Source: Heterobilharzia americana | Lineage: Eukaryota; Platyhelminthes; Trematoda; Strigeidida; Schistosomatidae | Direction: 5' to 3' | NCBI GenBank assembly: GCA_944470555.2 | Contig: OX104132.1 | Span: forward strand, 4,845,755 to 4,909,754 | DNA length: 64,000 bases | Shown: positions 18,046-61,671 of the stretch, one piece after another | How positions within the stretch are numbered: the first letter of the stretch is position 1 | Layout of the letters: every line of letters starts with the position of its first letter | Program-made: the position numbers and the translations under genes | The notes under the pieces: model-generated | Databases searched by the model: none | What the model saw: the letters and a program-made list of their open reading frames with translations, nothing else | What the model was told of the DNA's origin: nothing

Positions 18046-18049
18046 ATAT

Positions 18050-25946: not shown

Positions 25947-27831
<1,885 letters not shown>

Positions 27832-28052
27832 TGTCACATAATAGGAAAGTGAAACACTCATAATAAGTCTCAAACATATAAAGGCAAATACCGAGTGTAA
27901 AGTCAAATAAGACAGTTAAACAAGCAAATAACATTACACCGGCGAGGGTCAAAGGTACACCATCCATAACGAGGGTAAAAATGTTAAAATAAATGTCAAT
28001 ACAATCAAATAAGGGTGATCGGGAGGGATTTTCAGATCATTTTTCCTTTACA
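27832..28052 (-). repeat. Left terminal LTR (3' LTR of the array in minus orientation)
   Basis: Minus-strand ends are TGTAAAGG... and ...TATGTGACA. The first base (27,832, t) differs from the internal junctions, which have c at that position, so the LTR may be 220 or 221 bp. The sequence from 27,833 is identical to the start of unit 2 (30,472). It carries a TTTATATG box (minus strand, about 27,877-27,884), a TATA-like candidate. Confidence 0.75.
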
Positions 28053-28109
28053 CCGGCCACCAAAATCCCTCCAGACACGCAAAACACCTCTGTGTATTCA
28101 GCCGTGGCT

Positions 28110-29642
28110 CTATCTTTCTTCTACTCCCTCAAGAAGACAAAGCTTTCTTATATCTCTTCTCACGGTACCTTCCTTCATACGCACCATCACAGTTCTTACT
28201 AAATCGTCTTCGTCCTTCTCGCATGTTTCGATCACTCCTAAAGGCCAGGAACCACGTGGTGTTTTTTCAGAGGCCACAATCACCACATCTCCCTCCTTGA
28301 AATTTCTTTTTCTTCCCAACCACTTCTGACGAGTTTGCAAGCATGGTAGATACTCTTTCATCCATCGGCGCCAAAATACGTCAGCTAAGTAATTAACTTG
28401 TTTCCAACGTCTGACGTAATTATCGGCAATAGTGCCCTCCACGACTATTCCTCCACTATCTCTCAATAACAATAAGCTATTGGGAGTGAGAGCTAACTCG
28501 TCTTTTGGGTCGGTCGTCATGGGAACAATAGGACGGTTGTTCAAAATTCTTTCTATTTCCACGAAGTAGGTGGCTAATGTATCATCGTGCAGAGTCTGCT
28601 CTTTGGATATGACCATCAATAACCTGCGTACAGAACGTATCATCCTTTCCCATATCCCACCTCGATGACTCGCTTGCGGGAGGTTGAAACTCCATCGTAT
28701 CCCCTTTGACACCATGGCATCATTGATTCGTCGTTTATCCCACACACTCACCAGTTGTCTTAGTTCCGAAATCGCTCCAACAAAGTTGGAACCATTATCA
28801 CTGTATATCTCTGCAGGTGTTCCTCTTCTTCCTATGAACCTCATTACAGCCATTATAAAGGCGTCGGTGCCTAGGTTGAAAGCTACCTCTAAATGTATGG
28901 CTCGCGTCTGGAGACAAGTAAACACACACCCGTACCTCTTTTCCTCTCTTCTTCCCTGGCGAACCATGAGTGGTCCAAAATAATCAATTCCCACTGATGA
29001 GAAGCAAAACCATCCTTTCTGCACGCGACAGACCGGTAAAGGGGCCATCATCTGTTGACCCAGTGCAGCTTTCAATCGTCGGCACTCTATGCACTTTCTT
29101 ATCACCCGTTTGACCGCACTGATCCCCTTAATTATCCAATAGTTTCTTCGTAGAGTGGCCAGGACTTGCGAAGTACCAGTATGTCCTTCTATAATATGAT
29201 AATGCCTTATGATCAGCTCAGTCACGAAGTGATGTCTGGGGAGGATAACCGGATGCTTAAAAGTAAGTGGGTAGTCGGAATAGTTCAACCTCCCACCGAC
29301 GCAGACCAATCCACCCACAAGTATAGGTGACAACCTTTGCAATTCACCTTCTTCAGTCTCACAACTACCCTTTTCTCGGAGTTCCTTTATTAATTCTCCA
29401 TATACCTCCTGTTGTACCATACATAATACTTTATGTCTAGCAGCTTCCAGTTCATCGGCTGTTAGATAGCCAACATTCAGTGACACACCTTGGCGACGCG
29501 AATACATAACGGATATGTAGACCACATATCTCTTAAGCCATGCCACAGCTTTAATCAGCCTCACCCAGTCCGAATGATACGCCAAAATCGGATCAGTAGT
29601 GAGCTCAGTAACGTTTGTGTTTGTTCGGACCGACCTCTTCAA
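28110..29642 (-). CDS. BEL/Pao-type integrase, array copy 1
   Basis: The 510-codon open frame encodes the integrase part of a BEL/Pao polyprotein, which would insert element cDNA into chromosomes. A zinc-binding H2C2 domain lies at residues about 140-190 (H149, H154, C184, C187). The catalytic core lies at about 210-370 with D220 in 'GIDYFGP', D282 in 'YSDNGSNF' and E332 in 'GGIWERM'; the 49-residue spacing between the last two fits this family. A DUF5641-like C-terminal domain runs from about 405 to 505 ('WPLGVI' at 466-471). The listed start is TTG. The first ATG is codon 46 (29,505-29,507), and the frame is open further upstream to a TGA at 29,742-29,744, so it originally continued from pol. 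Whether it is translated is unknown. This copy has G110, L321, R483. Confidence 0.88.
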   Translation of the reverse strand: MKRSVRTNTNVTELTTDPILAYHSDWVRLIKAVAWLKRYVVYISVMYSRRQGVSLNVGYLTADELEAARHKVLCMVQQEVYGELIKELREKGSCETEEGELQRLSPILVGGLVCVGGRLNYSDYPLTFKHPVILPRHHFVTELIIRHYHIIEGHTGTSQVLATLRRNYWIIKGISAVKRVIRKCIECRRLKAALGQQMMAPLPVCRVQKGWFCFSSVGIDYFGPLMVRQGRREEKRYGCVFTCLQTRAIHLEVAFNLGTDAFIMAVMRFIGRRGTPAEIYSDNGSNFVGAISELRQLVSVWDKRRINDAMVSKGIRWSFNLPQASHRGGIWERMIRSVRRLLMVISKEQTLHDDTLATYFVEIERILNNRPIVPMTTDPKDELALTPNSLLLLRDSGGIVVEGTIADNYVRRWKQVNYLADVFWRRWMKEYLPCLQTRQKWLGRKRNFKEGDVVIVASEKTPRGSWPLGVIETCEKDEDDLVRTVMVRMKEGTVRRDIRKLCLLEGVEER

Positions 29643-29964
29643 TTCGACATTTTCCGGTGGTTCCTTCCAGCAGAGGTCTGTGGTACTTGAAAACTGTCGG
29701 GTTCCCAGAAAAGAGGGGCCCTGAATCCAACTGTCGTACCTTCAACTGAGCAGAGGTCCTACAAGGACTAGTCTTACTATAGTCAATACCTGTACCATTA
29801 TCAGAGCCACGGCATGAAATAACATCAAGAGGGACTTGCTTGGTATCTGAGGTCGGATCCATGGACATGTCACCTTCCCCGTCCGCAATTGACTCAAGGA
29901 ACACCTTGCGATTGCCAGGTACAGCAGTGACGGGTTGTTGAGTACTGTAGCGGCCAGAATCCAA
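29643..29964 (-). pseudogene. Frame-broken late-pol remnant upstream of the integrase (in every unit)
   Basis: The integrase frame continues upstream with 'DSWIQGPSFLG', the W-x-x-G-P-x-F-L block that precedes integrase in BEL/Pao elements, then meets a TGA at 29,742-29,744. The 119-codon frame on the same strand (29,605-29,964) contains 'PLDVISCRGSD', resembling the P-A-D-x-x-S-R-G block expected just before it. The coding signal thus shifts frame between the two. The same break occurs in all eleven units (offset +2,639 each), so the damage predates the amplification. No RT or RNase H motif precedes it. Confidence 0.65.
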
Positions 29965-30471
29965 TAATCTTGGCCTGAACGCGGGAAATAGCTAGGCGGT
30001 GCCAACTGACGTGAATCTGACTAGTTCCTGCGTTCTACTGTATAGCTTCCTAACTTCCGCGAGTGACGCACAGTCAAAGGTTGGATCGAAATATCAAAAC
30101 ACGGTTTGTAGTAATTCAATAGTAGATTCGTAACAAAATCTGTGGTACTATCAAAGCAACAATAAGTTATGTCAAATTACAAAAATACCTCAACAGTGCC
30201 GTTGGGTAACTATACAGTCCAAAACGTTCTCGGGTACAAATACGTACTACACGGTAAAAACTGGTTAAAAAATACAACTGTTAAATACCTGTCGGTCAAT
30301 AGGAATATTCCCGGCAAAAGGGATCAAAACTCTGCCTACAGGAATCAAATCAACAAACAAACGTTCCCAGTAGACAGTCAAAAGACAAACAGTCAAATCA
30401 CTGCACAACCGTAAGTTGAACCAAAACAAAATGTCGTGCGCAGTAAAACATCACCTTATCAACAGTCCAGC
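29965..30471 (-). other. Leader between 5' LTR and pol remnant (in every unit)
   Basis: These ~500 bp have no gag-like coding signal on the minus strand. The candidate primer-binding site is at the right edge (about 30,453-30,468). An 81-codon frame on the + strand (30,169-30,414) is preserved in all units, with one substitution in unit 11 (Y to C), but it shows no known domain. Its preservation is explained by the overall near-identity of the units. Confidence 0.5.
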
Positions 30472-30748
30472 GTCACATAATAGGAAAGTGAAACACTCAT
30501 AATAAGTCTCAAACATATAAAGGCAAATACCGAGTGTAAAGTCAAATAAGACAGTTAAACAAGCAAATAACATTACACCGGCGAGGGTCAAAGGTACACC
30601 ATCCATAACGAGGGTAAAAATGTTAAAATAAATGTCAATACAATCAAATAAGGGTGATCGGGAGGGATTTTCAGATCATTTTTCCTTTACACCGGCCACC
30701 AAAATCCCTCCAGACACGCAAAACACCTCTGTGTATTCAGCCGTGGCT

Positions 30749-32281
30749 CTATCTTTCTTCTACTCCCTCAAGAAGACAAAGCTTTCTTATATCTCTTCTC
30801 ACGGTACCTTCCTTCATACGCACCATCACAGTTCTTACTAAATCGTCTTCGTCCTTCTCGCATGTTTCGATCACTCCTAAAGGCCAGGAACCACGTGGTG
30901 TTTTTTCAGAGGCCACAATCACCACATCTCCCTCCTTGAAATTTCTTTTTCTTCCCAACCACTTCTGACGAGTTTGCAAGCATGGTAGATACTCTTTCAT
31001 CCATCGGCGCCAAAATACGTCAGCTAAGTAATTAACTTGTTTCCAACGTCTGACGTAATTATCGGCAATAGTGCCCTCCACGACTATTCCTCCACTATCT
31101 CTCAATAACAATAAGCTATTGGGAGTGAGAGCTAACTCGTCTTTTGGGTCGGTCGTCATGGGAACAATAGGACGGTTGTTCAAAATTCTTTCTATTTCCA
31201 CGAAGTAGGTGGCTAATGTATCATCGTGCAGAGTCTGCTCTTTGGATATGACCATCAATAACCTGCGTACAGAACGTATCATCCTTTCCCATATCCCACC
31301 TCGATGACTCGCTTGCGGGAGGTTGAAACTCCATCGTATCCCCTTTGACACCATGGCATCATTGATTCGTCGTTTATCCCACACACTCACCAGTTGTCTT
31401 AGTTCCGAAATCGCTCCAACAAAGTTGGAACCATTATCACTGTATATCTCTGCAGGTGTTCCTCTTCTTCCTATGAACCTCATTACAGCCATTATAAAGG
31501 CGTCGGTGCCTAGGTTGAAAGCTACCTCTAAATGTATGGCTCGCGTCTGGAGACAAGTAAACACACACCCGTACCTCTTTTCCTCTCTTCTTCCCTGGCG
31601 AACCATGAGTGGTCCAAAATAATCAATTCCCACTGATGAGAAGCAAAACCATCCTTTCTGCACGCGACAGACCGGTAAAGGGGCCATCATCTGTTGACCC
31701 AGTGCAGCTTTCAATCGTCGGCACTCTATGCACTTTCTTATCACCCGTTTGACCGCACTGATCCCCTTAATTATCCAATAGTTTCTTCGTAGAGTGGCCA
31801 GGACTTGCGAAGTACCAGTATGTCCTTCTATAATATGATAATGCCTTATGATCAGCTCAGTCACGAAGTGATGTCTGGGGAGGATAACCGGATGCTTAAA
31901 AGTAAGTGGGTAGTCGGAATAGTTCAACCTCCCACCGACGCAGACCAATCCACCCACAAGTATAGGTGACAACCTTTGCAATTCACCTTCTTCAGTCTCA
32001 CAACTACCCTTTTCTCGGAGTTCCTTTATTAATTCTCCATATACCTCCTGTTGTACCATACATAATACTTTATGTCTAGCAGCTTCCAGTTCATCGGCTG
32101 TTAGATAGCCAACATTCAGTGACACACCTTGGCGACGCGAATACATAACGGATATGTAGACCACATATCTCTTAAGCCATGCCACAGCTTTAATCAGCCT
32201 CACCCAGTCCGAATGATACGCCAAAATCGGATCAGTAGTGAGCTCAGTAACGTTTGTGTTTGTTCGGACCGACCTCTTCAA
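30749..32281 (-). CDS. BEL/Pao-type integrase, array copy 2
   Basis: Protein identical to copy 1 (G110, L321, R483). The upstream remnant differs from copy 1 by one base (c instead of t at 32,342, Asp for Asn in the 119-codon frame), a state shared with copies 3, 4 and 10. Confidence 0.88.
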   Translation of the reverse strand: MKRSVRTNTNVTELTTDPILAYHSDWVRLIKAVAWLKRYVVYISVMYSRRQGVSLNVGYLTADELEAARHKVLCMVQQEVYGELIKELREKGSCETEEGELQRLSPILVGGLVCVGGRLNYSDYPLTFKHPVILPRHHFVTELIIRHYHIIEGHTGTSQVLATLRRNYWIIKGISAVKRVIRKCIECRRLKAALGQQMMAPLPVCRVQKGWFCFSSVGIDYFGPLMVRQGRREEKRYGCVFTCLQTRAIHLEVAFNLGTDAFIMAVMRFIGRRGTPAEIYSDNGSNFVGAISELRQLVSVWDKRRINDAMVSKGIRWSFNLPQASHRGGIWERMIRSVRRLLMVISKEQTLHDDTLATYFVEIERILNNRPIVPMTTDPKDELALTPNSLLLLRDSGGIVVEGTIADNYVRRWKQVNYLADVFWRRWMKEYLPCLQTRQKWLGRKRNFKEGDVVIVASEKTPRGSWPLGVIETCEKDEDDLVRTVMVRMKEGTVRRDIRKLCLLEGVEER

Positions 32282-33387
32282 TTCGACATTTTCCGGTGGT
32301 TCCTTCCAGCAGAGGTCTGTGGTACTTGAAAACTGTCGGGTCCCCAGAAAAGAGGGGCCCTGAATCCAACTGTCGTACCTTCAACTGAGCAGAGGTCCTA
32401 CAAGGACTAGTCTTACTATAGTCAATACCTGTACCATTATCAGAGCCACGGCATGAAATAACATCAAGAGGGACTTGCTTGGTATCTGAGGTCGGATCCA
32501 TGGACATGTCACCTTCCCCGTCCGCAATTGACTCAAGGAACACCTTGCGATTGCCAGGTACAGCAGTGACGGGTTGTTGAGTACTGTAGCGGCCAGAATC
32601 CAATAATCTTGGCCTGAACGCGGGAAATAGCTAGGCGGTGCCAACTGACGTGAATCTGACTAGTTCCTGCGTTCTACTGTATAGCTTCCTAACTTCCGCG
32701 AGTGACGCACAGTCAAAGGTTGGATCGAAATATCAAAACACGGTTTGTAGTAATTCAATAGTAGATTCGTAACAAAATCTGTGGTACTATCAAAGCAACA
32801 ATAAGTTATGTCAAATTACAAAAATACCTCAACAGTGCCGTTGGGTAACTATACAGTCCAAAACGTTCTCGGGTACAAATACGTACTACACGGTAAAAAC
32901 TGGTTAAAAAATACAACTGTTAAATACCTGTCGGTCAATAGGAATATTCCCGGCAAAAGGGATCAAAACTCTGCCTACAGGAATCAAATCAACAAACAAA
33001 CGTTCCCAGTAGACAGTCAAAAGACAAACAGTCAAATCACTGCACAACCGTAAGTTGAACCAAAACAAAATGTCGTGCGCAGTAAAACATCACCTTATCA
33101 ACAGTCCAGCGTCACATAATAGGAAAGTGAAACACTCATAATAAGTCTCAAACATATAAAGGCAAATACCGAGTGTAAAGTCAAATAAGACAGTTAAACA
33201 AGCAAATAACATTACACCGGCGAGGGTCAAAGGTACACCATCCATAACGAGGGTAAAAATGTTAAAATAAATGTCAATACAATCAAATAAGGGTGATCGG
33301 GAGGGATTTTCAGATCATTTTTCCTTTACACCGGCCACCAAAATCCCTCCAGACACGCAAAACACCTCTGTGTATTCAGCCGTGGCT

Positions 33388-34920
33388 CTATCTTTCTTCT
33401 ACTCCCTCAAGAAGACAAAGCTTTCTTATATCTCTTCTCACGGTACCTTCCTTCATACGCACCATCACAGTTCCTACTAAATCGTCTTCGTCCTTCTCGC
33501 ATGTTTCGATCACTCCTAAAGGCCAGGAACCACGTGGTGTTTTTTCAGAGGCCACAATCACCACATCTCCCTCCTTGAAATTTCTTTTTCTTCCCAACCA
33601 CTTCTGACGAGTTTGCAAGCATGGTAGATACTCTTTCATCCATCGGCGCCAAAATACGTCAGCTAAGTAATTAACTTGTTTCCAACGTCTGACGTAATTA
33701 TCGGCAATAGTGCCCTCCACGACTATTCCTCCACTATCTCTCAATAACAATAAGCTATTGGGAGTGAGAGCTAACTCGTCTTTTGGGTCGGTCGTCATGG
33801 GAACAATAGGACGGTTGTTCAAAATTCTTTCTATTTCCACGAAGTAGGTGGCTAATGTATCATCGTGCAGAGTCTGCTCTTTGGATATGACCATCAATAA
33901 CCTGCGTACAGAACGTATCATCCTTTCCCATATCCCACCTCGATGACTCGCTTGCGGGGGGTTGAAACTCCATCGTATCCCCTTTGACACCATGGCATCA
34001 TTGATTCGTCGTTTATCCCACACACTCACCAGTTGTCTTAGTTCCGAAATCGCTCCAACAAAGTTGGAACCATTATCACTGTATATCTCTGCAGGTGTTC
34101 CTCTTCTTCCTATGAACCTCATTACAGCCATTATAAAGGCGTCGGTGCCTAGGTTGAAAGCTACCTCTAAATGTATGGCTCGCGTCTGGAGACAAGTAAA
34201 CACACACCCGTACCTCTTTTCCTCTCTTCTTCCCTGGCGAACCATGAGTGGTCCAAAATAATCAATTCCCACTGATGAGAAGCAAAACCATCCTTTCTGC
34301 ACGCGACAGACCGGTAAAGGGGCCATCATCTGTTGACCCAGTGCAGCTTTCAATCGTCGGCACTCTATGCACTTTCTTATCACCCGTTTGACCGCACTGA
34401 TCCCCTTAATTATCCAATAGTTTCTTCGTAGAGTGGCCAGGACTTGCGAAGTACCAGTATGTCCTTCTATAATATGATAATGCCTTATGATCAGCTCAGT
34501 CACGAAGTGATGTCTGGGGAGGATAACCGGATGCTTAAAAGTAAGTGGGTAGTCGGAATAGTTCAACCTCCCACCGACGCAGACCAATCCACCCACAAGT
34601 ATAGGTGACAACCTTTGCAATTCACCTTCTTCAGTCTCACAACTACCCTTTTCTCGGAGTTCCTTTATTAATTCTCCATATACCTCCTGTTGTACCATAC
34701 ATAATACTTTATGTCTAGCAGCTTCCAGTTCATCGGCTGTTAGATAGCCAACATTCAGTGACACACCTTGGCGACGCGAATACATAACGGATATGTAGAC
34801 CACATATCTCTTAAGCCATGCCACAGCTTTAATCAGCCTCACCCAGTCCGAATGATACGCCAAAATCGGATCAGTAGTGAGCTCAGTAACGTTTGTGTTT
34901 GTTCGGACCGACCTCTTCAA
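33388..34920 (-). CDS. BEL/Pao-type integrase, array copy 3
   Basis: Carries two changes relative to copy 1: L321P, at the position just before the 'PQASHRGG' stretch of the core, and the private R483G in the C-terminal domain (codon change near 33,473). Catalytic residues are intact. It has the copy 1-4 states at the linked silent sites. Confidence 0.88.
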   Translation of the reverse strand: MKRSVRTNTNVTELTTDPILAYHSDWVRLIKAVAWLKRYVVYISVMYSRRQGVSLNVGYLTADELEAARHKVLCMVQQEVYGELIKELREKGSCETEEGELQRLSPILVGGLVCVGGRLNYSDYPLTFKHPVILPRHHFVTELIIRHYHIIEGHTGTSQVLATLRRNYWIIKGISAVKRVIRKCIECRRLKAALGQQMMAPLPVCRVQKGWFCFSSVGIDYFGPLMVRQGRREEKRYGCVFTCLQTRAIHLEVAFNLGTDAFIMAVMRFIGRRGTPAEIYSDNGSNFVGAISELRQLVSVWDKRRINDAMVSKGIRWSFNPPQASHRGGIWERMIRSVRRLLMVISKEQTLHDDTLATYFVEIERILNNRPIVPMTTDPKDELALTPNSLLLLRDSGGIVVEGTIADNYVRRWKQVNYLADVFWRRWMKEYLPCLQTRQKWLGRKRNFKEGDVVIVASEKTPRGSWPLGVIETCEKDEDDLVGTVMVRMKEGTVRRDIRKLCLLEGVEER

Positions 34921-36026
34921 TTCGACATTTTCCGGTGGTTCCTTCCAGCAGAGGTCTGTGGTACTTGAAAACTGTCGGGTCCCCAGAAAAGAGGGGCCCT
35001 GAATCCAACTGTCGTACCTTCAACTGAGCAGAGGTCCTACAAGGACTAGTCTTACTATAGTCAATACCTGTACCATTATCAGAGCCACGGCATGAAATAA
35101 CATCAAGAGGGACTTGCTTGGTATCTGAGGTCGGATCCATGGACATGTCACCTTCCCCGTCCGCAATTGACTCAAGGAACACCTTGCGATTGCCAGGTAC
35201 AGCAGTGACGGGTTGTTGAGTACTGTAGCGGCCAGAATCCAATAATCTTGGCCTGAACGCGGGAAATAGCTAGGCGGTGCCAACTGACGTGAATCTGACT
35301 AGTTCCTGCGTTCTACTGTATAGCTTCCTAACTTCCGCGAGTGACGCACAGTCAAAGGTTGGATCGAAATATCAAAACACGGTTTGTAGTAATTCAATAG
35401 TAGATTCGTAACAAAATCTGTGGTACTATCAAAGCAACAATAAGTTATGTCAAATTACAAAAATACCTCAACAGTGCCGTTGGGTAACTATACAGTCCAA
35501 AACGTTCTCGGGTACAAATACGTACTACACGGTAAAAACTGGTTAAAAAATACAACTGTTAAATACCTGTCGGTCAATAGGAATATTCCCGGCAAAAGGG
35601 ATCAAAACTCTGCCTACAGGAATCAAATCAACAAACAAACGTTCCCAGTAGACAGTCAAAAGACAAACAGTCAAATCACTGCACAACCGTAAGTTGAACC
35701 AAAACAAAATGTCGTGCGCAGTAAAACATCACCTTATCAACAGTCCAGCGTCACATAATAGGAAAGTGAAACACTCATAATAAGTCTCAAACATATAAAG
35801 GCAAATACCGAGTGTAAAGTCAAATAAGACAGTTAAACAAGCAAATAACATTACACCGGCGAGGGTCAAAGGTACACCATCCATAACGAGGGTAAAAATG
35901 TTAAAATAAATGTCAATACAATCAAATAAGGGTGATCGGGAGGGATTTTCAGATCATTTTTCCTTTACACCGGCCACCAAAATCCCTCCAGACACGCAAA
36001 ACACCTCTGTGTATTCAGCCGTGGCT

Positions 36027-37559
36027 CTATCTTTCTTCTACTCCCTCAAGAAGACAAAGCTTTCTTATATCTCTTCTCACGGTACCTTCCTTCATACGCA
36101 CCATCACAGTTCTTACTAAATCGTCTTCGTCCTTCTCGCATGTTTCGATCACTCCTAAAGGCCAGGAACCACGTGGTGTTTTTTCAGAGGCCACAATCAC
36201 CACATCTCCCTCCTTGAAATTTCTTTTTCTTCCCAACCACTTCTGACGAGTTTGCAAGCATGGTAGATACTCTTTCATCCATCGGCGCCAAAATACGTCA
36301 GCTAAGTAATTAACTTGTTTCCAACGTCTGACGTAATTATCGGCAATAGTGCCCTCCACGACTATTCCTCCACTATCTCTCAATAACAATAAGCTATTGG
36401 GAGTGAGAGCTAACTCGTCTTTTGGGTCGGTCGTCATGGGAACAATAGGACGGTTGTTCAAAATTCTTTCTATTTCCACGAAGTAGGTGGCTAATGTATC
36501 ATCGTGCAGAGTCTGCTCTTTGGATATGACCATCAATAACCTGCGTACAGAACGTATCATCCTTTCCCATATCCCACCTCGATGACTCGCTTGCGGGAGG
36601 TTGAAACTCCATCGTATCCCCTTTGACACCATGGCATCATTGATTCGTCGTTTATCCCACACACTCACCAGTTGTCTTAGTTCCGAAATCGCTCCAACAA
36701 AGTTGGAACCATTATCACTGTATATCTCTGCAGGTGTTCCTCTTCTTCCTATGAACCTCATTACAGCCATTATAAAGGCGTCGGTGCCTAGGTTGAAAGC
36801 TACCTCTAAATGTATGGCTCGCGTCTGGAGACAAGTAAACACACACCCGTACCTCTTTTCCTCTCTTCTTCCCTGGCGAACCATGAGTGGTCCAAAATAA
36901 TCAATTCCCACTGATGAGAAGCAAAACCATCCTTTCTGCACGCGACAGACCGGTAAAGGGGCCATCATCTGTTGACCCAGTGCAGCTTTCAATCGTCGGC
37001 ACTCTATGCACTTTCTTATCACCCGTTTGACCGCACTGATCCCCTTAATTATCCAATAGTTTCTTCGTAGAGTGGCCAGGACTTGCGAAGTACCAGTATG
37101 TCCTTCTATAATATGATAATGCCTTATGATCAGCTCAGTCACGAAGTGATGTCTGGGGAGGATAACCGGATGCTTAAAAGTAAGTGGGTAGTCGGAATAG
37201 TTCAACCTCCCACCGACGCAGACCAATCCACCCACAAGTATAGGTGACAACCTTTGCAATTCACCTTCTTCAGTCTCACAACTACCCTTTTCTCGGAGTT
37301 CCTTTATTAATTCTCCATATACCTCCTGTTGTACCATACATAATACTTTATGTCTAGCAGCTTCCAGTTCATCGGCTGTTAGATAGCCAACATTCAGTGA
37401 CACACCTTGGCGACGCGAATACATAACGGATATGTAGACCACATATCTCTTAAGCCATGCCACAGCTTTAATCAGCCTCACCCAGTCCGAATGATACGCC
37501 AAAATCGGATCAGTAGTGAGCTCAGTAACGTTTGTGTTTGTTCGGACCGACCTCTTCAA
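36027..37559 (-). CDS. BEL/Pao-type integrase, array copy 4
   Basis: Protein identical to copies 1 and 2. It is the last unit with the left-block haplotype; the next unit to the right changes at five of the six variable sites tracked. Confidence 0.88.
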   Translation of the reverse strand: MKRSVRTNTNVTELTTDPILAYHSDWVRLIKAVAWLKRYVVYISVMYSRRQGVSLNVGYLTADELEAARHKVLCMVQQEVYGELIKELREKGSCETEEGELQRLSPILVGGLVCVGGRLNYSDYPLTFKHPVILPRHHFVTELIIRHYHIIEGHTGTSQVLATLRRNYWIIKGISAVKRVIRKCIECRRLKAALGQQMMAPLPVCRVQKGWFCFSSVGIDYFGPLMVRQGRREEKRYGCVFTCLQTRAIHLEVAFNLGTDAFIMAVMRFIGRRGTPAEIYSDNGSNFVGAISELRQLVSVWDKRRINDAMVSKGIRWSFNLPQASHRGGIWERMIRSVRRLLMVISKEQTLHDDTLATYFVEIERILNNRPIVPMTTDPKDELALTPNSLLLLRDSGGIVVEGTIADNYVRRWKQVNYLADVFWRRWMKEYLPCLQTRQKWLGRKRNFKEGDVVIVASEKTPRGSWPLGVIETCEKDEDDLVRTVMVRMKEGTVRRDIRKLCLLEGVEER

Positions 37560-46582: not shown

Positions 46583-48115
46583 CTATCTTTCTTCTACTCC
46601 CTCAAGAAGACAAAGCTTTCTTATATCTCTTCTCACGGTACCTTCCTTCATACGCACCATCACAGTTCTTACTAAATCGTCTTCGTCCTTCTCGCATGTT
46701 TCGATCACTCCCAAAGGCCAGGAACCACGTGGTGTTTTTTCAGAGGCCACAATCACCACATCTCCCTCCTTGAAATTTCTTTTTCTTCCCAACCACTTCT
46801 GACGAGTTTGCAAGCATGGTAGATACTCTTTCATCCATCGGCGCCAAAATACGTCAGCTAAGTAATTAACTTGTTTCCAACGTCTGACGTAATTATCGGC
46901 AATAGTGCCCTCCACGACTATTCCTCCACTATCTCTCAATAACAATAAGCTATTGGGAGTGAGAGCTAACTCGTCTTTTGGGTCGGTCGTCATGGGAACA
47001 ATAGGACGGTTGTTCAAAATTCTTTCTATTTCCACGAAGTAGGTGGCTAATGTATCATCGTGCAGAGTCTGCTCTTTGGATATGACCATCAATAACCTGC
47101 GTACAGAACGTATCATCCTTTCCCATATCCCACCTCGATGACTCGCTTGCGGGGGGTTGAAACTCCATCGTATCCCCTTTGACACCATGGCATCATTGAT
47201 TCGTCGTTTATCCCACACACTCACCAGTTGTCTTAGTTCCGAAATCGCTCCAACAAAGTTGGAACCATTATCACTGTATATCTCTGCAGGTGTTCCTCTT
47301 CTTCCTATGAACCTCATTACAGCCATTATAAAGGCGTCGGTGCCTAGGTTGAAAGCTACCTCTAAATGTATGGCTCGCGTCTGGAGACAAGTAAACACAC
47401 ACCCGTACCTCTTTTCCTCTCTTCTTCCCTGGCGAACCATGAGTGGTCCAAAATAATCAATTCCCACTGATGAGAAGCAAAACCATCCTTTCTGCACGCG
47501 ACAGACCGGTAAAGGGGCCATCATCTGTTGACCCAGTGCAGCTTTCAATCGTCGGCACTCTATGCACTTTCTTATCACCCGTTTGACCGCACTGATCCCC
47601 TTAATTATCCAATAGTTTCTTCGTAGAGTGGCCAGGACTTGCGAAGTACCAGTATGTCCTTCTATAATATGATAATGCCTTATGATCAGCTCAGTCACGA
47701 AGTGATGTCTGGGGAGGATAACCGGATGCTTAAAAGTAAGTGGGTAGTCGGAATAGTTCAACCTCCCACCGACGCAGACCAATCCACCCACAAGTATAGG
47801 TGACAACCTTTGCAATTCACCTTCTTCAGTCTCACAACTACCCTTTTCTCGGAGTTCCTTTATTAATTCTCCATATACCTCCTGTTGTACCATACATAAT
47901 ACTTTATGTCTAGCAGCTTCCAGTTCATCGGCTGTTAGATAGCCAACATTCAGTGACACACCTTGGCGACGCGAATACATAACGGATATGTAGACCACAT
48001 ATCTCTTAAGCCATGCCACAGCTTTAATCAGCCTCACCCAGTCCGAATGATACGCCAAAATCGGATCAGTAGTGAGCTCAGTAACGTTTGTGTTTGTTCG
48101 GACCGACCTCTTCAA
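46583..48115 (-). CDS. BEL/Pao-type integrase, array copy 8
   Basis: G110 and P321, the same protein as copy 6. It is a mosaic: left-block state at the LTR site and at the silent N-N-R-P site (47,009), right-block state at the site between them (46,712). Confidence 0.88.
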   Translation of the reverse strand: MKRSVRTNTNVTELTTDPILAYHSDWVRLIKAVAWLKRYVVYISVMYSRRQGVSLNVGYLTADELEAARHKVLCMVQQEVYGELIKELREKGSCETEEGELQRLSPILVGGLVCVGGRLNYSDYPLTFKHPVILPRHHFVTELIIRHYHIIEGHTGTSQVLATLRRNYWIIKGISAVKRVIRKCIECRRLKAALGQQMMAPLPVCRVQKGWFCFSSVGIDYFGPLMVRQGRREEKRYGCVFTCLQTRAIHLEVAFNLGTDAFIMAVMRFIGRRGTPAEIYSDNGSNFVGAISELRQLVSVWDKRRINDAMVSKGIRWSFNPPQASHRGGIWERMIRSVRRLLMVISKEQTLHDDTLATYFVEIERILNNRPIVPMTTDPKDELALTPNSLLLLRDSGGIVVEGTIADNYVRRWKQVNYLADVFWRRWMKEYLPCLQTRQKWLGRKRNFKEGDVVIVASEKTPRGSWPLGVIETCEKDEDDLVRTVMVRMKEGTVRRDIRKLCLLEGVEER

Positions 48116-49221
48116 TTCGACATTTTCCGGTGGTTCCTTCCAGCAGAGGTCTGTGGTACTTGAAAACTGTCGGGTTCCCAGAAAAGAGGGGCCCTGAATC
48201 CAACTGTCGTACCTTCAACTGAGCAGAGGTCCTACAAGGACTAGTCTTACTATAGTCAATACCTGTACCATTATCAGAGCCACGGCATGAAATAACATCA
48301 AGAGGGACTTGCTTGGTATCTGAGGTCGGATCCATGGACATGTCACCTTCCCCGTCCGCAATTGACTCAAGGAACACCTTGCGATTGCCAGGTACAGCAG
48401 TGACGGGTTGTTGAGTACTGTAGCGGCCAGAATCCAATAATCTTGGCCTGAACGCGGGAAATAGCTAGGCGGTGCCAACTGACGTGAATCTGACTAGTTC
48501 CTGCGTTCTACTGTATAGCTTCCTAACTTCCGCGAGTGACGCACAGTCAAAGGTTGGATCGAAATATCAAAACACGGTTTGTAGTAATTCAATAGTAGAT
48601 TCGTAACAAAATCTGTGGTACTATCAAAGCAACAATAAGTTATGTCAAATTACAAAAATACCTCAACAGTGCCGTTGGGTAACTATACAGTCCAAAACGT
48701 TCTCGGGTACAAATACGTACTACACGGTAAAAACTGGTTAAAAAATACAACTGTTAAATACCTGTCGGTCAATAGGAATATTCCCGGCAAAAGGGATCAA
48801 AACTCTGCCTACAGGAATCAAATCAACAAACAAACGTTCCCAGTAGACAGTCAAAAGACAAACAGTCAAATCACTGCACAACCGTAAGTTGAACCAAAAC
48901 AAAATGTCGTGCGCAGTAAAACATCACCTTATCAACAGTCCAGCGTCACATAATAGGAAAGTGAAACACTCATAATAAGTCTCAAACATACAAAGGCAAA
49001 TACCGAGTGTAAAGTCAAATAAGACAGTTAAACAAGCAAATAACATTACACCGGCGAGGGTCAAAGGTACACCATCCATAACGAGGGTAAAAATGTTAAA
49101 ATAAATGTCAATACAATCAAATAAGGGTGATCGGGAGGGATTTTCAGATCATTTTTCCTTTACACCGGCCACCAAAATCCCTCCAGACACGCAAAACACC
49201 TCTGTGTATTCAGCCGTGGCT

Positions 49222-50754
49222 CTATCTTTCTTCTACTCCCTCAAGAAGACAAAGCTTTCTTATATCTCTTCTCACGGTACCTTCCTTCATACGCACCATC
49301 ACAGTTCTTACTAAATCGTCTTCGTCCTTCTCGCATGTTTCGATCACTCCCAAAGGCCAGGAACCACGTGGTGTTTTTTCAGAGGCCACAATCACCACAT
49401 CTCCCTCCTTGAAATTTCTTTTTCTTCCCAACCACTTCTGACGAGTTTGCAAGCATGGTAGATACTCTTTCATCCATCGGCGCCAAAATACGTCAGCTAA
49501 GTAATTAACTTGTTTCCAACGTCTGACGTAATTATCGGCAATAGTGCCCTCCACGACTATTCCTCCACTATCTCTCAATAACAATAAGCTATTGGGAGTG
49601 AGAGCTAACTCGTCTTTTGGGTCGGTCGTCATGGGAACAATAGGACGATTGTTCAAAATTCTTTCTATTTCCACGAAGTAGGTGGCTAATGTATCATCGT
49701 GCAGAGTCTGCTCTTTGGATATGACCATCAATAACCTGCGTACAGAACGTATCATCCTTTCCCATATCCCACCTCGATGACTCGCTTGCGGGGGGTTGAA
49801 ACTCCATCGTATCCCCTTTGACACCATGGCATCATTGATTCGTCGTTTATCCCACACACTCACCAGTTGTCTTAGTTCCGAAATCGCTCCAACAAAGTTG
49901 GAACCATTATCACTGTATATCTCTGCAGGTGTTCCTCTTCTTCCTATGAACCTCATTACAGCCATTATAAAGGCGTCGGTGCCTAGGTTGAAAGCTACCT
50001 CTAAATGTATGGCTCGCGTCTGGAGACAAGTAAACACACACCCGTACCTCTTTTCCTCTCTTCTTCCCTGGCGAACCATGAGTGGTCCAAAATAATCAAT
50101 TCCCACTGATGAGAAGCAAAACCATCCTTTCTGCACGCGACAGACCGGTAAAGGGGCCATCATCTGTTGACCCAGTGCAGCTTTCAATCGTCGGCACTCT
50201 ATGCACTTTCTTATCACCCGTTTGACCGCACTGATCCCCTTAATTATCCAATAGTTTCTTCGTAGAGTGGCCAGGACTTGCGAAGTACCAGTATGTCCTT
50301 CTATAATATGATAATGCCTTATGATCAGCTCAGTCACGAAGTGATGTCTGGGGAGGATAACCGGATGCTTAAAAGTAAGTGGGTAGTCGGAATAGTTCAA
50401 CCTCCCACCGACGCAGACCAATCCATCCACAAGTATAGGTGACAACCTTTGCAATTCACCTTCTTCAGTCTCACAACTACCCTTTTCTCGGAGTTCCTTT
50501 ATTAATTCTCCATATACCTCCTGTTGTACCATACATAATACTTTATGTCTAGCAGCTTCCAGTTCATCGGCTGTTAGATAGCCAACATTCAGTGACACAC
50601 CTTGGCGACGCGAATACATAACGGATATGTAGACCACATATCTCTTAAGCCATGCCACAGCTTTAATCAGCCTCACCCAGTCCGAATGATACGCCAAAAT
50701 CGGATCAGTAGTGAGCTCAGTAACGTTTGTGTTTGTTCGGACCGACCTCTTCAA
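49222..50754 (-). CDS. BEL/Pao-type integrase, array copy 9
   Basis: D110 and P321. It agrees with copy 5 at all six variable sites tracked. Confidence 0.88.
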   Translation of the reverse strand: MKRSVRTNTNVTELTTDPILAYHSDWVRLIKAVAWLKRYVVYISVMYSRRQGVSLNVGYLTADELEAARHKVLCMVQQEVYGELIKELREKGSCETEEGELQRLSPILVDGLVCVGGRLNYSDYPLTFKHPVILPRHHFVTELIIRHYHIIEGHTGTSQVLATLRRNYWIIKGISAVKRVIRKCIECRRLKAALGQQMMAPLPVCRVQKGWFCFSSVGIDYFGPLMVRQGRREEKRYGCVFTCLQTRAIHLEVAFNLGTDAFIMAVMRFIGRRGTPAEIYSDNGSNFVGAISELRQLVSVWDKRRINDAMVSKGIRWSFNPPQASHRGGIWERMIRSVRRLLMVISKEQTLHDDTLATYFVEIERILNNRPIVPMTTDPKDELALTPNSLLLLRDSGGIVVEGTIADNYVRRWKQVNYLADVFWRRWMKEYLPCLQTRQKWLGRKRNFKEGDVVIVASEKTPRGSWPLGVIETCEKDEDDLVRTVMVRMKEGTVRRDIRKLCLLEGVEER

Positions 50755-51860
50755 TTCGACATTTTCCGGTGGTTCCTTCCAGCAGAGGTCTGTGGTACTT
50801 GAAAACTGTCGGGTTCCCAGAAAAGAGGGGCCCTGAATCCAACTGTCGTACCTTCAACTGAGCAGAGGTCCTACAAGGACTAGTCTTACTATAGTCAATA
50901 CCTGTACCATTATCAGAGCCACGGCATGAAATAACATCAAGAGGGACTTGCTTGGTATCTGAGGTCGGATCCATGGACATGTCACCTTCCCCGTCCGCAA
51001 TTGACTCAAGGAACACCTTGCGATTGCCAGGTACAGCAGTGACGGGTTGTTGAGTACTGTAGCGGCCAGAATCCAATAATCTTGGCCTGAACGCGGGAAA
51101 TAGCTAGGCGGTGCCAACTGACGTGAATCTGACTAGTTCCTGCGTTCTACTGTATAGCTTCCTAACTTCCGCGAGTGACGCACAGTCAAAGGTTGGATCG
51201 AAATATCAAAACACGGTTTGTAGTAATTCAATAGTAGATTCGTAACAAAATCTGTGGTACTATCAAAGCAACAATAAGTTATGTCAAATTACAAAAATAC
51301 CTCAACAGTGCCGTTGGGTAACTATACAGTCCAAAACGTTCTCGGGTACAAATACGTACTACACGGTAAAAACTGGTTAAAAAATACAACTGTTAAATAC
51401 CTGTCGGTCAATAGGAATATTCCCGGCAAAAGGGATCAAAACTCTGCCTACAGGAATCAAATCAACAAACAAACGTTCCCAGTAGACAGTCAAAAGACAA
51501 ACAGTCAAATCACTGCACAACCGTAAGTTGAACCAAAACAAAATGTCGTGCGCAGTAAAACATCACCTTATCAACAGTCCAGCGTCACATAATAGGAAAG
51601 TGAAACACTCATAATAAGTCTCAAACATACAAAGGCAAATACCGAGTGTAAAGTCAAATAAGACAGTTAAACAAGCAAATAACATTACACCGGCGAGGGT
51701 CAAAGGTACACCATCCATAACGAGGGTAAAAATGTTAAAATAAATGTCAATACAATCAAATAAGGGTGATCGGGAGGGATTTTCAGATCATTTTTCCTTT
51801 ACACCGGCCACCAAAATCCCTCCAGACACGCAAAACACCTCTGTGTATTCAGCCGTGGCT

Positions 51861-53393
51861 CTATCTTTCTTCTACTCCCTCAAGAAGACAAAGCTTTCTT
51901 ATATCTCTTCTCACGGTACCTTCCTTCATACGCACCATCACAGTTCTTACTAAATCGTCTTCGTCCTTCTCGCATGTTTCGATCACTCCCAAAGGCCAGG
52001 AACCACGTGGTGTTTTTTCAGAGGCCACAATCACCACATCTCCCTCCTTGAAATTTCTTTTTCTTCCCAACCACTTCTGACGAGTTTGCAAGCATGGTAG
52101 ATACTCTTTCATCCATCGGCGCCAAAATACGTCAGCTAAGTAATTAACTTGTTTCCAACGTCTGACGTAATTATCGGCAATAGTGCCCTCCACGACTATT
52201 CCTCCACTATCTCTCAATAACAATAAGCTATTGGGAGTGAGAGCTAACTCGTCTTTTGGGTCGGTCGTCATGGGAACAATAGGACGATTGTTCAAAATTC
52301 TTTCTATTTCCACGAAGTAGGTGGCTAATGTATCATCGTGCAGAGTCTGCTCTTTGGATATGACCATCAATAACCTGCGTACAGAACGTATCATCCTTTC
52401 CCATATCCCACCTCGATGACTCGCTTGCGGGGGGTTGAAACTCCATCGTATCCCCTTTGACACCATGGCATCATTGATTCGTCGTTTATCCCACACACTC
52501 ACCAGTTGTCTTAGTTCCGAAATCGCTCCAACAAAGTTGGAACCATTATCACTGTATATCTCTGCAGGTGTTCCTCTTCTTCCTATGAACCTCATTACAG
52601 CCATTATAAAGGCGTCGGTGCCTAGGTTGAAAGCTACCTCTAAATGTATGGCTCGCGTCTGGAGACAAGTAAACACACACCCGTACCTCTTTTCCTCTCT
52701 TCTTCCCTGGCGAACCATGAGTGGTCCAAAATAATCAATTCCCACTGATGAGAAGCAAAACCATCCTTTCTGCACGCGACAGACCGGTAAAGGGGCCATC
52801 ATCTGTTGACCCAGTGCAGCTTTCAATCGTCGGCACTCTATGCACTTTCTTATCACCCGTTTGACCGCACTGATCCCCTTAATTATCCAATAGTTTCTTC
52901 GTAGAGTGGCCAGGACTTGCGAAGTACCAGTATGTCCTTCTATAATATGATAATGCCTTATGATCAGCTCAGTCACGAAGTGATGTCTGGGGAGGATAAC
53001 CGGATGCTTAAAAGTAAGTGGGTAGTCGGAATAGTTCAACCTCCCACCGACGCAGACCAATCCACCCACAAGTATAGGTGACAACCTTTGCAATTCACCT
53101 TCTTCAGTCTCACAACTACCCTTTTCTCGGAGTTCCTTTATTAATTCTCCATATACCTCCTGTTGTACCATACATAATACTTTATGTCTAGCAGCTTCCA
53201 GTTCATCGGCTGTTAGATAGCCAACATTCAGTGACACACCTTGGCGACGCGAATACATAACGGATATGTAGACCACATATCTCTTAAGCCATGCCACAGC
53301 TTTAATCAGCCTCACCCAGTCCGAATGATACGCCAAAATCGGATCAGTAGTGAGCTCAGTAACGTTTGTGTTTGTTCGGACCGACCTCTTCAA
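51861..53393 (-). CDS. BEL/Pao-type integrase, array copy 10
   Basis: G110 and P321. The adjoining upstream remnant has the c state (53,454), otherwise found only in copies 2-4. Confidence 0.88.
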   Translation of the reverse strand: MKRSVRTNTNVTELTTDPILAYHSDWVRLIKAVAWLKRYVVYISVMYSRRQGVSLNVGYLTADELEAARHKVLCMVQQEVYGELIKELREKGSCETEEGELQRLSPILVGGLVCVGGRLNYSDYPLTFKHPVILPRHHFVTELIIRHYHIIEGHTGTSQVLATLRRNYWIIKGISAVKRVIRKCIECRRLKAALGQQMMAPLPVCRVQKGWFCFSSVGIDYFGPLMVRQGRREEKRYGCVFTCLQTRAIHLEVAFNLGTDAFIMAVMRFIGRRGTPAEIYSDNGSNFVGAISELRQLVSVWDKRRINDAMVSKGIRWSFNPPQASHRGGIWERMIRSVRRLLMVISKEQTLHDDTLATYFVEIERILNNRPIVPMTTDPKDELALTPNSLLLLRDSGGIVVEGTIADNYVRRWKQVNYLADVFWRRWMKEYLPCLQTRQKWLGRKRNFKEGDVVIVASEKTPRGSWPLGVIETCEKDEDDLVRTVMVRMKEGTVRRDIRKLCLLEGVEER

Positions 53394-54499
53394 TTCGACA
53401 TTTTCCGGTGGTTCCTTCCAGCAGAGGTCTGTGGTACTTGAAAACTGTCGGGTCCCCAGAAAAGAGGGGCCCTGAATCCAACTGTCGTACCTTCAACTGA
53501 GCAGAGGTCCTACAAGGACTAGTCTTACTATAGTCAATACCTGTACCATTATCAGAGCCACGGCATGAAATAACATCAAGAGGGACTTGCTTGGTATCTG
53601 AGGTCGGATCCATGGACATGTCACCTTCCCCGTCCGCAATTGACTCAAGGAACACCTTGCGATTGCCAGGTACAGCAGTGACGGGTTGTTGAGTACTGTA
53701 GCGGCCAGAATCCAATAATCTTGGCCTGAACGCGGGAAATAGCTAGGCGGTGCCAACTGACGTGAATCTGACTAGTTCCTGCGTTCTACTGTATAGCTTC
53801 CTAACTTCCGCGAGTGACGCACAGTCAAAGGTTGGATCGAAATATCAAAACACGGTTTGTAGTAATTCAATAGTAGATTCGTAACAAAATCTGTGGTACT
53901 ATCAAAGCAACAATAAGTTATGTCAAATTACAAAAATACCTCAACAGTGCCGTTGGGTAACTATACAGTCCAAAACGTTCTCGGGTACAAATACGTACTA
54001 CACGGTAAAAACTGGTTAAAAAATACAACTGTTAAATACCTGTCGGTCAATAGGAATATTCCCGGCAAAAGGGATCAAAACTCTGCCTACAGGAATCAAA
54101 TCAACAAACAAACGTTCCCAGTAGACAGTCAAAAGACAAACAGTCAAATCACTGCACAACCGTAAGTTGAACCAAAACAAAATGTCGTGCGCAGTAAAAC
54201 ATCACCTTATCAACAGTCCAGCGTCACATAATAGGAAAGTGAAACACTCATAATAAGTCTCAAACATATAAAGGCAAATACCGAGTGTAAAGTCAAATAA
54301 GACAGTTAAACAAGCAAATAACATTACACCGGCGAGGGTCAAAGGTACACCATCCATAACGAGGGTAAAAATGTTAAAATAAATGTCAATACAATCAAAT
54401 AAGGGTGATCGGGAGGGATTTTCAGATCATTTTTCCTTTACACCGGCCACCAAAATCCCTCCAGACACGCAAAACACCTCTGTGTATTCAGCCGTGGCT

Positions 54500-56032
54500 C
54501 TATCTTTCTTCTACTCCCTCAAGAAGACAAAGCTTTCTTATATCTCTTCTCACGGTACCTTCCTTCATACGCACCATCACAGTTCTTACTAAATCGTCTT
54601 CGTCCTTCTCGCATGTTTCGATCACTCCCAAAGGCCAGGAACCACGTGGTGTTTTTTCAGAGGCCACAATCACCACATCTCCCTCCTTGAAATTTCTTTT
54701 TCTTCCCAACCACTTCTGACGAGTTTGCAAGCATGGTAGATACTCTTTCATCCATCGGCGCCAAAATACGTCAGCTAAGTAATTAACTTGTTTCCAACGT
54801 CTGACGTAATTATCGGCAATAGTGCCCTCCACGACTATTCCTCCACTATCTCTCAATAACAATAAGCTATTGGGAGTGAGAGCTAACTCGTCTTTTGGGT
54901 CGGTCGTCATGGGAACAATAGGACGATTGTTCAAAATTCTTTCTATTTCCACGAAGTAGGTGGCTAATGTATCATCGTGCAGAGTCTGCTCTTTGGATAT
55001 GACCATCAATAACCTGCGTACAGAACGTATCATCCTTTCCCATATCCCACCTCGATGACTCGCTTGCGGGGGGTTGAAACTCCATCGTATCCCCTTTGAC
55101 ACCATGGCATCATTGATTCGTCGTTTATCCCACACACTCACCAGTTGTCTTAGTTCCGAAATCGCTCCAACAAAGTTGGAACCATTATCACTGTATATCT
55201 CTGCAGGTGTTCCTCTTCTTCCTATGAACCTCATTACAGCCATTATAAAGGCGTCGGTGCCTAGGTTGAAAGCTACCTCTAAATGTATGGCTCGCGTCTG
55301 GAGACAAGTAAACACACACCCGTACCTCTTTTCCTCTCTTCTTCCCTGGCGAACCATGAGTGGTCCAAAATAATCAATTCCCACTGATGAGAAGCAAAAC
55401 CATCCTTTCTGCACGCGACAGACCGGTAAAGGGGCCATCATCTGTTGACCCAGTGCAGCTTTCAATCGTCGGCACTCTATGCACTTTCTTATCACCCGTT
55501 TGACCGCACTGATCCCCTTAATTATCCAATAGTTTCTTCGTAGAGTGGCCAGGACTTGCGAAGTACCAGTATGTCCTTCTATAATATGATAATGCCTTAT
55601 GATCAGCTCAGTCACGAAGTGATGTCTGGGGAGGATAACCGGATGCTTAAAAGTAAGTGGGTAGTCGGAATAGTTCAACCTCCCACCGACGCAGACCAAT
55701 CCATCCACAAGTATAGGTGACAACCTTTGCAATTCACCTTCTTCAGTCTCACAACTACCCTTTTCTCGGAGTTCCTTTATTAATTCTCCATATACCTCCT
55801 GTTGTACCATACATAATACTTTATGTCTAGCAGCTTCCAGTTCATCGGCTGTTAGATAGCCAACATTCAGTGACACACCTTGGCGACGCGAATACATAAC
55901 GGATATGTAGACCACATATCTCTTAAGCCATGCCACAGCTTTAATCAGCCTCACCCAGTCCGAATGATACGCCAAAATCGGATCAGTAGTGAGCTCAGTA
56001 ACGTTTGTGTTTGTTCGGACCGACCTCTTCAA
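54500..56032 (-). CDS. BEL/Pao-type integrase, array copy 11
   Basis: D110 and P321. It is the 5'-most unit in the direction of transcription. Its own leader carries a private base change (Tyr to Cys in the + strand 81-codon frame near 56,625), and to its right lies the divergent patch at 56,818-56,925. Confidence 0.88.
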   Translation of the reverse strand: MKRSVRTNTNVTELTTDPILAYHSDWVRLIKAVAWLKRYVVYISVMYSRRQGVSLNVGYLTADELEAARHKVLCMVQQEVYGELIKELREKGSCETEEGELQRLSPILVDGLVCVGGRLNYSDYPLTFKHPVILPRHHFVTELIIRHYHIIEGHTGTSQVLATLRRNYWIIKGISAVKRVIRKCIECRRLKAALGQQMMAPLPVCRVQKGWFCFSSVGIDYFGPLMVRQGRREEKRYGCVFTCLQTRAIHLEVAFNLGTDAFIMAVMRFIGRRGTPAEIYSDNGSNFVGAISELRQLVSVWDKRRINDAMVSKGIRWSFNPPQASHRGGIWERMIRSVRRLLMVISKEQTLHDDTLATYFVEIERILNNRPIVPMTTDPKDELALTPNSLLLLRDSGGIVVEGTIADNYVRRWKQVNYLADVFWRRWMKEYLPCLQTRQKWLGRKRNFKEGDVVIVASEKTPRGSWPLGVIETCEKDEDDLVRTVMVRMKEGTVRRDIRKLCLLEGVEER

Positions 56033-56817
56033 TTCGACATTTTCCGGTGGTTCCTTCCAGCAGAGGTCTGTGGTACTTGAAAACTGTCGGGTTCCCAGAA
56101 AAGAGGGGCCCTGAATCCAACTGTCGTACCTTCAACTGAGCAGAGGTCCTACAAGGACTAGTCTTACTATAGTCAATACCTGTACCATTATCAGAGCCAC
56201 GGCATGAAATAACATCAAGAGGGACTTGCTTGGTATCTGAGGTCGGATCCATGGACATGTCACCTTCCCCGTCCGCAATTGACTCAAGGAACACCTTGCG
56301 ATTGCCAGGTACAGCAGTGACGGGTTGTTGAGTACTGTAGCGGCCAGAATCCAATAATCTTGGCCTGAACGCGGGAAATAGCTAGGCGGTGCCAACTGAC
56401 GTGAATCTGACTAGTTCCTGCGTTCTACTGTATAGCTTCCTAACTTCCGCGAGTGACGCACAGTCAAAGGTTGGATCGAAATATCAAAACACGGTTTGTA
56501 GTAATTCAATAGTAGATTCGTAACAAAATCTGTGGTACTATCAAAGCAACAATAAGTTATGTCAAATTACAAAAATACCTCAACAGTGCCGTTGGGTAAC
56601 TATACAGTCCAAAACGTTCTCGGGTGCAAATACGTACTACACGGTAAAAACTGGTTAAAAAATACAACTGTTAAATACCTGTCGGTCAATAGGAATATTC
56701 CCGGCAAAAGGGATCAAAACTCTGCCTACAGGAATCAAATCAACAAACAAACGTTCCCAGTAGACAGTCAAAAGACAAACAGTCAAATCACTGCACAACC
56801 GTAAGTTGAACCAAAAC

Positions 56818-56925
56818 GAAATGTCGGGCGCGGTAAAACATCACCTTGTCAACCTTCTAGCGTCACATAATAGGAAACTGAAACATTCATATTAAGTATC
56901 AAACATACAAGGGCAAACACCGAGT
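56818..56925. other. Divergent patch at the right (5') edge of the array
   Basis: About 108 bp covering the end of the leader and the first 64 bp of the terminal LTR differ from the unit consensus at more than a dozen positions. Examples are 'aaccttctag' for 'aacagtccag', 'gaaactgaaacattcatatt' for 'gaaagtgaaacactcataat', and 'acaagggcaaacacc' for 'ataaaggcaaatacc'. The bases on both sides (copy 11 body, and 56,926-57,081) match the consensus almost perfectly. Confidence 0.8.
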
Positions 56926-57081
56926 GTAAAGTCAAATAAGACAGTTAAACAAGCAAATAACATTACACCGGCGAGGGTCAAAGGTACACCATCCATAACG
57001 AGGGTAAAAATGTTAAAATAAATGTCAATACAATCAAATAAGGGTGATCGGGAGGGATTTTCAGATCATTTTTCCTTTACA
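56862..57081 (-). repeat. Right terminal LTR (5' LTR of the array in minus orientation)
   Basis: It starts on the minus strand with TGTAAAGG at 57,081 and ends at 56,862, giving 220 bp with no length change relative to the internal LTRs. The inner third is divergent (see 56,818-56,925), and the outer 156 bp match the consensus. If the array is transcribed as one unit, this is the outermost promoter-bearing LTR. It has the TTTGTATG form of the TATA-like box. Confidence 0.75.
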
Positions 57082-57086
57082 TTCCT
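57082..57086. other. Candidate target-site duplication, right
   Basis: Reads ttcct, against tttct at 27,827-27,831; one transition apart. Confidence 0.4.
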
Positions 57087-57250: not shown

Positions 57251-57299
57251 CCAAACTAGTAAAATACATAATCACAGAAGTGAGCCGGTGTGTGCTTGT

Positions 57300-59860: not shown

Positions 59861-60044
59861 ATTATAATCTCTGTATTTATCCCGCTTGTAAAGACAAAGT
59901 CTCACAAAATGCCATGAACCACAGTGCGAGATAGAGGAAAGAGAGGGCTTCTTCCTGTTTCTTTTGGCATTGCAGATGTTGGAGTAATGAATAGGAGATG
60001 AAAAGCCAGGAGTCCTTTGGCCAGGAAAGGATAAATAATAATGA

Positions 60045-60490: not shown

Positions 60491-60544
60491 CCAAGTGTTA
60501 TCATTCATAGCAATATGGATTGGATGGTGCAAAAGGAATAAAAA

Positions 60545-60640
60545 CTTGAAAAAACTGCTGACCAGTGACAATGAGTTTTCCATACTGTCCACGTCAAGGT
60601 ATGCAGCACTGTCAAGGAGGTGTATTCACTGTTAGATGAA
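60545..60640 (+). pseudogene. CR1-like LINE extreme C-terminus (fragment)
   Basis: One + frame reads 'LKKLLTSDNEFSILSTSRYA', parallel to 'LNKLLTDDESITRLVTRYT' at the end of the LINE near 1,280. Only about 30 codons match. Confidence 0.35.
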
Positions 60641-61664: not shown

Positions 61665-61671
61665 ATTCGAT

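Follow-up and report, generated by a model that had tools for sequence, protein, structure and literature searches.

How can a retrotransposon that has lost most of its coding region come to stand eleven times in a row at one locus? The question is raised by a stretch of 64,000 nucleotides from the trematode Heterobilharzia americana (contig OX104132.1, positions 4,845,755 to 4,909,754, hereafter the window), in which a long terminal repeat (LTR) and an integrase region alternate over 29 kb. The array has its sense on the minus strand and consists of 11 head-to-tail units with a period of exactly 2,639 bp, as measured by offset identity; repetition on this scale is far beyond chance. Judged by its sequence, each unit derives by internal deletion from a Pao/BEL element that is abundant in the same genome. 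The array probably goes back to a single deleted insertion that was multiplied at its locus by unequal recombination between LTRs or between units, and is an unusually large animal case of known tandem LTR-retrotransposon structures.

The deleted unit and its parent family

Each unit is composed of a 746-bp LTR and a 1,893-bp internal region. Aligned with one another and with the 220-bp remainder of a further copy, the 11 units (U1 to U11) show no indels, and any two of U1-U10 are 0-6 bases apart (mean 3.3, or 0.13%). The original prediction, made from the letters of the window, had announced eleven units of this length with few point changes and with LTRs common to neighbours, and on both counts it was right: 11 full LTRs alternate with 11 internal regions, and a terminal LTR of 220 bp completes the series. 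Position 27,832, given as the first base of the array, is flank, and identity begins at 27,833. A short LTR of about 220 bp had also been supposed. Dispersed relatives (L001, L005-L007) reveal an LTR end, ..GGCCGCTACA, followed by varied flanks; dispersed copies carry a longer LTR, which rules out one of 220 bp, this being the overhang of the truncated last LTR. Family LTRs mostly measure 749 bp. The 3-bp difference of the array recurs in L003 and in one of 80 further copies surveyed (L087). At the sense-3' side of the 80 copies the LTR is full, by the criterion of the script, in 79, and cut at 355 bp in one.

The genome searched amounts to 665 Mb in 337 contigs, the array residing on contig C6. 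The LTR-leader junction, with at most 2 mismatches, occurs at 162 places genome-wide, 11 of them in the array, and a reversed control gave 0. Pieces of one relative contain a Pao Peptidase_A17 domain (159.4 bits, above cut-off), and match RVT_1 (24.2 bits, cut-off 29.6) and DUF1759 (22.7 bits, cut-off 25.4) below the respective cut-offs; an aspartyl protease match, again below cut-off, was obtained in pieces of one relative. A check for the full-length parent had been proposed, and a Pao/BEL parent family with Peptidase_A17, as seen in these pieces, is present in the same genome. The integrase of the array unit is itself of the BEL/Pao type, featuring an H2C2 zinc domain, a DUF5641 tail and a widened D..D(49)E spacing. 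Matches to DUF5641 (100.6 bits), which we take to be a mark of Pao/BEL integrase tails, and to Integrase_H2C2 (38.2 bits) are both above cut-off, the rve core match (23.1 bits) being below its 32.6 cut-off. Among the 120 protein matches listed out of 869, a Schistosoma mattheei protein ranks first at 70% identity, ahead of other flukes; no integrase relative was found among solved structures at E 0.001. Public records P0004, P0079 and P0013 label such integrases as Streptococcus dysgalactiae or as Schistosoma valine-tRNA ligase, the former label probably reflecting contamination and the latter a chimeric gene model.

Four copies were compared with U5 over 1,406-1,439 bases of the integrase region, and differ from it by 4 (L058), 6 (L072), 8 (L005) and 10 (L060) bases. 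L058, the nearest of the four, shows 4 differences in 1,432 internal bases and 2 in the LTR; indels aside, the LTR and the final 479 bases of the internal region are the same in U5, L060 and L072. Seven differences are fixed in the array relative to L003 and L005-L008, with L004 excluded from the codon table: three are family variants, four so far private to the array. A second integrase type, frequently in frames of 1,058 aa, was noticed in L020, L028, L030, L031 and L033. LTR and leader are about 99% alike, and the integrase matches that of the array only in its last part and in a short stretch, so that these elements look as if modules had been exchanged.

The deletion that gave rise to the unit can be read from its relatives. 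Gag pieces from three tandem relatives (L018-L020) match the unit up to position 967, pol pieces (L005, L006) match it from position 962, and the TTGGAT common to the gag and pol sides is a 6-bp microhomology at the deletion junction. About 48 codons separate the gag ATG from the junction. In all 11 units the frame opened by this ATG runs for 87 codons to a stop, the integrase region that follows being in another frame. The gag ATG motif is followed by a frame open to the piece end in 9 of 11 family pieces, all nine from five tandem loci; in L119 the motif is followed by a stop after 31 codons, and in L120 it is absent. The units had been described as devoid of gag, protease and reverse transcriptase, which is correct except for the residual gag codons, out of frame with the integrase. 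A query spanning the junction was matched end to end by the 11 units only: 40 places were scored of 382 candidates, and the other 29 break off at the breakpoint. Among these places there are hence no dispersed single-unit copies with the junction, such as the original prediction had suggested looking for. A further 25 bp, at the integrase stop, are missing from all 11 units relative to the six dispersed copies compared (L003-L008; L001 and L002, which match only in part, were left out), and the alignments of all 80 further copies show 25-27 gap positions at the same site.

Tandem relatives and probable exchange between units

The integrase search scored 150 places of 358 candidates, which were reduced to 134 loci by merging, by eye, same-strand matches less than 7 kb apart. 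Five loci besides the array (C3 at 12.1, 24.4 and 46.3 Mb, C8 at 31.6 and 88.9 Mb) hold 2-3 undeleted units at constant spacing, and the junction pieces reveal a single shared LTR between units at each of them. All four tandems with both ends intact are bounded by perfect 5-bp target-site duplications (GACGG, ACATC, ACTAC and GTGAT), which fits one insertion per tandem; the fifth locus is without its 5' LTR start. L044 and L093, two of the 80 copies surveyed, carry a leader directly after the LTR, and the sequence beyond matches the family only in part; they may be further tandems.

Variation within the array is limited and mosaic. Variable columns across the 11 units are 15, of which 8 vary in U11 alone, at the outer end. 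U5 has the same sequence as U9, and U2 the same as U4. Outside the outer-LTR region there are seven variable sites: at six the rarer state is present in at least three units, one is private, and all four combinations occur at 8 of the 21 site pairs. U5 and U9 match the dispersed copies compared at all seven sites, and thus carry the family state; U1-U4 have most derived states in common. The rarer states found in several units and the four-combination pairs imply that mutations spread between units, and the mosaic pattern points to exchange; independent mutation would not predict it. U11 differs from the other units by 9-13 bases, mainly on account of the outer 5' LTR. This LTR has 15 bases different from LTR01, of which 14 fall within LTR positions 164-264 (101 bp) and include both transitions and transversions. 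The comparison of LTR columns is limited to those that vary when L003, L004 and the truncated LTR are set aside; in these, 1 of the 14 patch positions (174) shows the family base in the outer LTR, the other 13 differing from the family as well. No donor of the patch was found among the loci compared, the next best match in the genome search being 93% identical (40 places scored of 1,100 candidates). An outermost repeat escaping homogenisation would preserve such a patch, not create it.

In one rice genome 28 clear tandem LTR-retrotransposons are reported, 10 with perfect 5-nt duplications (PMC11899658). Like these plant tandems, the array alternates LTR and internal region and shares its LTRs; the plant tandems often have one target-site duplication and vary in unit number. 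They are mostly gypsy elements, and the two loci described in detail have two units, whereas here a Pao/BEL element is found in an animal in 11 units, internally deleted and truncated at one end. The same article cites shared-LTR tandems in yeast, tandem TRIM (terminal-repeat retrotransposons in miniature) elements and LTR arrays of kangaroo centromeres. For the TRIM and kangaroo tandems, whose element families differ from that of the array, illegitimate LTR recombination was proposed. TRIMs are not known to have an integrase coding region. Sinbad and Saci-1 are Pao/BEL elements of Schistosoma mansoni, and widened D-to-E spacing has been described for BEL/Pao-like elements (PMC554778). Compared by description, Sinbad measures 6,287 bp, has 386-bp LTRs and forms no array, and its integrase, of the same superfamily, is D(62)D(49)E versus D(61)D(49)E in the array; the LTR of Saci-1 is about 840 bp, versus 746 bp. 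Literature searches, judged by titles and abstract openings of open-licence papers, turned up no earlier integrase-only Pao/BEL array.

Origin of the array

The sequence of events that best accommodates these data would start with the insertion of a Pao/BEL element at the array locus, followed by the loss, through the 6-bp microhomology, of everything between early gag and the beginning of the integrase region. Recombination between LTRs on sister chromatids or homologues could have then converted LTR-int-LTR into LTR-int-LTR-int-LTR, and repeated unequal exchange among identical 2.6-kb units would have raised their number to 11, exchange and gene conversion carrying variants from unit to unit. 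The sense-3' end would have been lost later, within its LTR. We infer both the succession of these steps and that unequal exchange drove the expansion; the stage of 2-3 units, with insertion scars, is present in the same genome as the array. Several facts speak against such a history. Copy number and unit order rest on the assembly. The array has no demonstrable target-site duplication, the sense-3' end being truncated. Between the outer 5' LTR and the other full LTRs there are 14-15 base differences, for which no donor was found among the places searched and which simple unequal exchange does not account for. Moreover, formation in two steps, with insertion of a multimer and exchange thereafter, fits nearly as well.

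A tandem inserted as a whole, as a retrotransposition multimer derived from a one-LTR-circle transcript or from a concatemer, and little changed since, seems rather unlikely. It predicts the single perfect 5-bp duplication around the tandem which is seen in the four testable relatives, and Morales-Diaz et al. 2025 (PMC11899658) keep both mechanisms open; yet the 11 units bear one private deletion, no dispersed single copy of which turned up in the 29 other scored places, and mosaic and shared variants require later exchange anyway. The assembly may have multiplied or misordered one or few units, as the identity of U5 with U9 and of U2 with U4, and a unit count taken from the assembly, would allow, but this is improbable. 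No two of the 10 pairs of neighbouring units show the same combination of haplotypes, the array lies on a contig of 46 Mb (C6), and the other tandems of the assembly show clean duplications. With neighbour pairs distinct, the order of the units might in theory be established by accurate reads of about 8 kb. A mobile, non-autonomous family similar to TRIMs or to LARDs (large retrotransposon derivatives), with the tandem as one of many copies of the unit, is very improbable: LTRs, leader and a purine-rich stretch before the LTR are retained, but the other 29 places scored all lack the deletion junction, and none of the 80 surveyed relatives aligns at the integrase stop without the gap positions mentioned above.

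The array, probably amplified in place from a deleted insertion, resembles a satellite repeat at an early stage. As in satellites, the monomers lie head to tail and are homogenised, with mosaic variants. Satellites typically occupy many loci with long arrays, or lie in heterochromatin; here one 29-kb array was found, and the junction nowhere else among the 40 places scored. Retrotransposon-derived satellites also have an LTR retrotransposon as the seed of a satellite-like array (PMC7004042, PMC6947457); the satellite of PMC7004042 was seeded by a short tandem repeat of the 3' untranslated region, while here the monomer is the whole deleted element. The earlier satellite-like reading survives as far as a young array of LTR plus integrase with shared LTRs is concerned, not in its suggestion of an integrase donor in trans. 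Going further, one may tentatively imagine that a single recent Pao/BEL deletion is acting as a recombination-prone satellite monomer, still expanding and contracting, possibly via circles, and that unit number varies between individuals. If so, this newborn-satellite locus would report the rate of LTR-driven satellite formation. One genome displays undeleted parents, tandems of 2-3 units with clean scars and a deleted array of 11 units, a set of stages useful for asking how satellites are seeded by LTR retrotransposons, whether expansion goes further with shorter units, and whether it proceeds by exchange or multimeric insertion.

Integrase frames, array ends and surroundings

The unbroken 510-codon integrase frame reported for each unit is open in 11 of 11 units, with no internal stops. 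The zinc domain and the catalytic D(61)D(49)E are found in U1 and U11, and in U5 too. The figure of 510, which comes from a bacterial-code count of 11 minus-strand ORFs, starts at a TTG; the first ATG is codon 79 of a 543-codon open frame. Retention of the array for the supply of integrase in trans, or for a host role, is barely credible. It would agree with the 11 open frames, with the catalytic residues retained in the protein examined, and with a nonsynonymous share, 6 of 13 changes, that is below the 0.67 expected for transitions, though not significantly (P=0.10). However, no ATG precedes codon 79, and the gag ATG is out of frame in every unit. Of the 13 changes, the set to which the P value belongs, 3 are also in L058, and 5 of the remaining 10 are nonsynonymous. 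In U1, U2 and U4 a P is changed to L four residues before the SHRGG stretch; the dispersed copies compared keep this P, as do three fluke relatives (P0002, P0008 and P0017). The chance that 13 changes produce no stop is 0.64 for transitions and 0.49 for any change. Youth alone predicts open frames, and intact frames consequently tell little about function. On sequence grounds an integrase donor is unlikely, and the candidate was discarded on the basis of the reading frame and the lack of dispersal among the places scored. More generally, an integrase frame that stays open in an array of this kind is no proof of function.

Table 1. Positions, in the window, of the array and its parts
Feature	Position	Strand	Description
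Whole array	27833..57081	-	11 units (27833-56861) plus 220 bp of next copy (56862-57081); from offset identity and variant table
Sense-3' terminal LTR	27833..28052	-	Truncated after first 220 bp; breakpoint into unrelated flank
First-unit internal region	28053..29945	-	1,893 bp: leader, ~48 gag codons, integrase region, 3' end
First-unit integrase frame	28110..29642	-	Repeats every 2,639; H2C2 zinc domain, D220-D282-E332, DUF5641
25-bp deletion at integrase stop codon	28110..28116	-	Stop kept; all 11 units; placement ambiguous in alignment
Internal-deletion junction, first unit	29725..29730	-	6-bp microhomology TTGGAT, gag joined to integrase region; versus L018-L020, L005, L006
LTR01	29946..30691	-	746 bp; the other ten full LTRs follow at steps of 2,639, the last at 56336-57081
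Sense-5' terminal LTR (LTR11)	56336..57081	-	Divergent patch at LTR 164-264 (window 56818-56918)
5 bp flanking intact sense-5' end	57082..57086	-	AGGAA in sense; sense-3' end truncated

The missing remainder of the sense-3' LTR is absent both from the 27.8 kb to the left of the array and from 40 kb further left (L013-L016), and insertion of another element that split the last LTR was rejected for this reason. The hunt yielded only an approximately 69% identical relative in L013. This is a plus-strand relative of the array LTR and leader (L013:8126-9037, contig C6, 1-2 kb left of the window), about 69-71% identical.

Neither a tRNA nor an Rfam match at gathering score was found in the window. 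The right flank (57256-63857, minus strand) contains short decayed frames and a weak RVT_1 match, below cut-off, at 62910-63428, and may be an old retroelement. A microsatellite, (TC)n followed by (TA)n, lies at 25950-26073. Finally, two inverted 111-bp repeats (293-403 and 17942-18052), 88% complementary, may both be copies of one short dispersed element.

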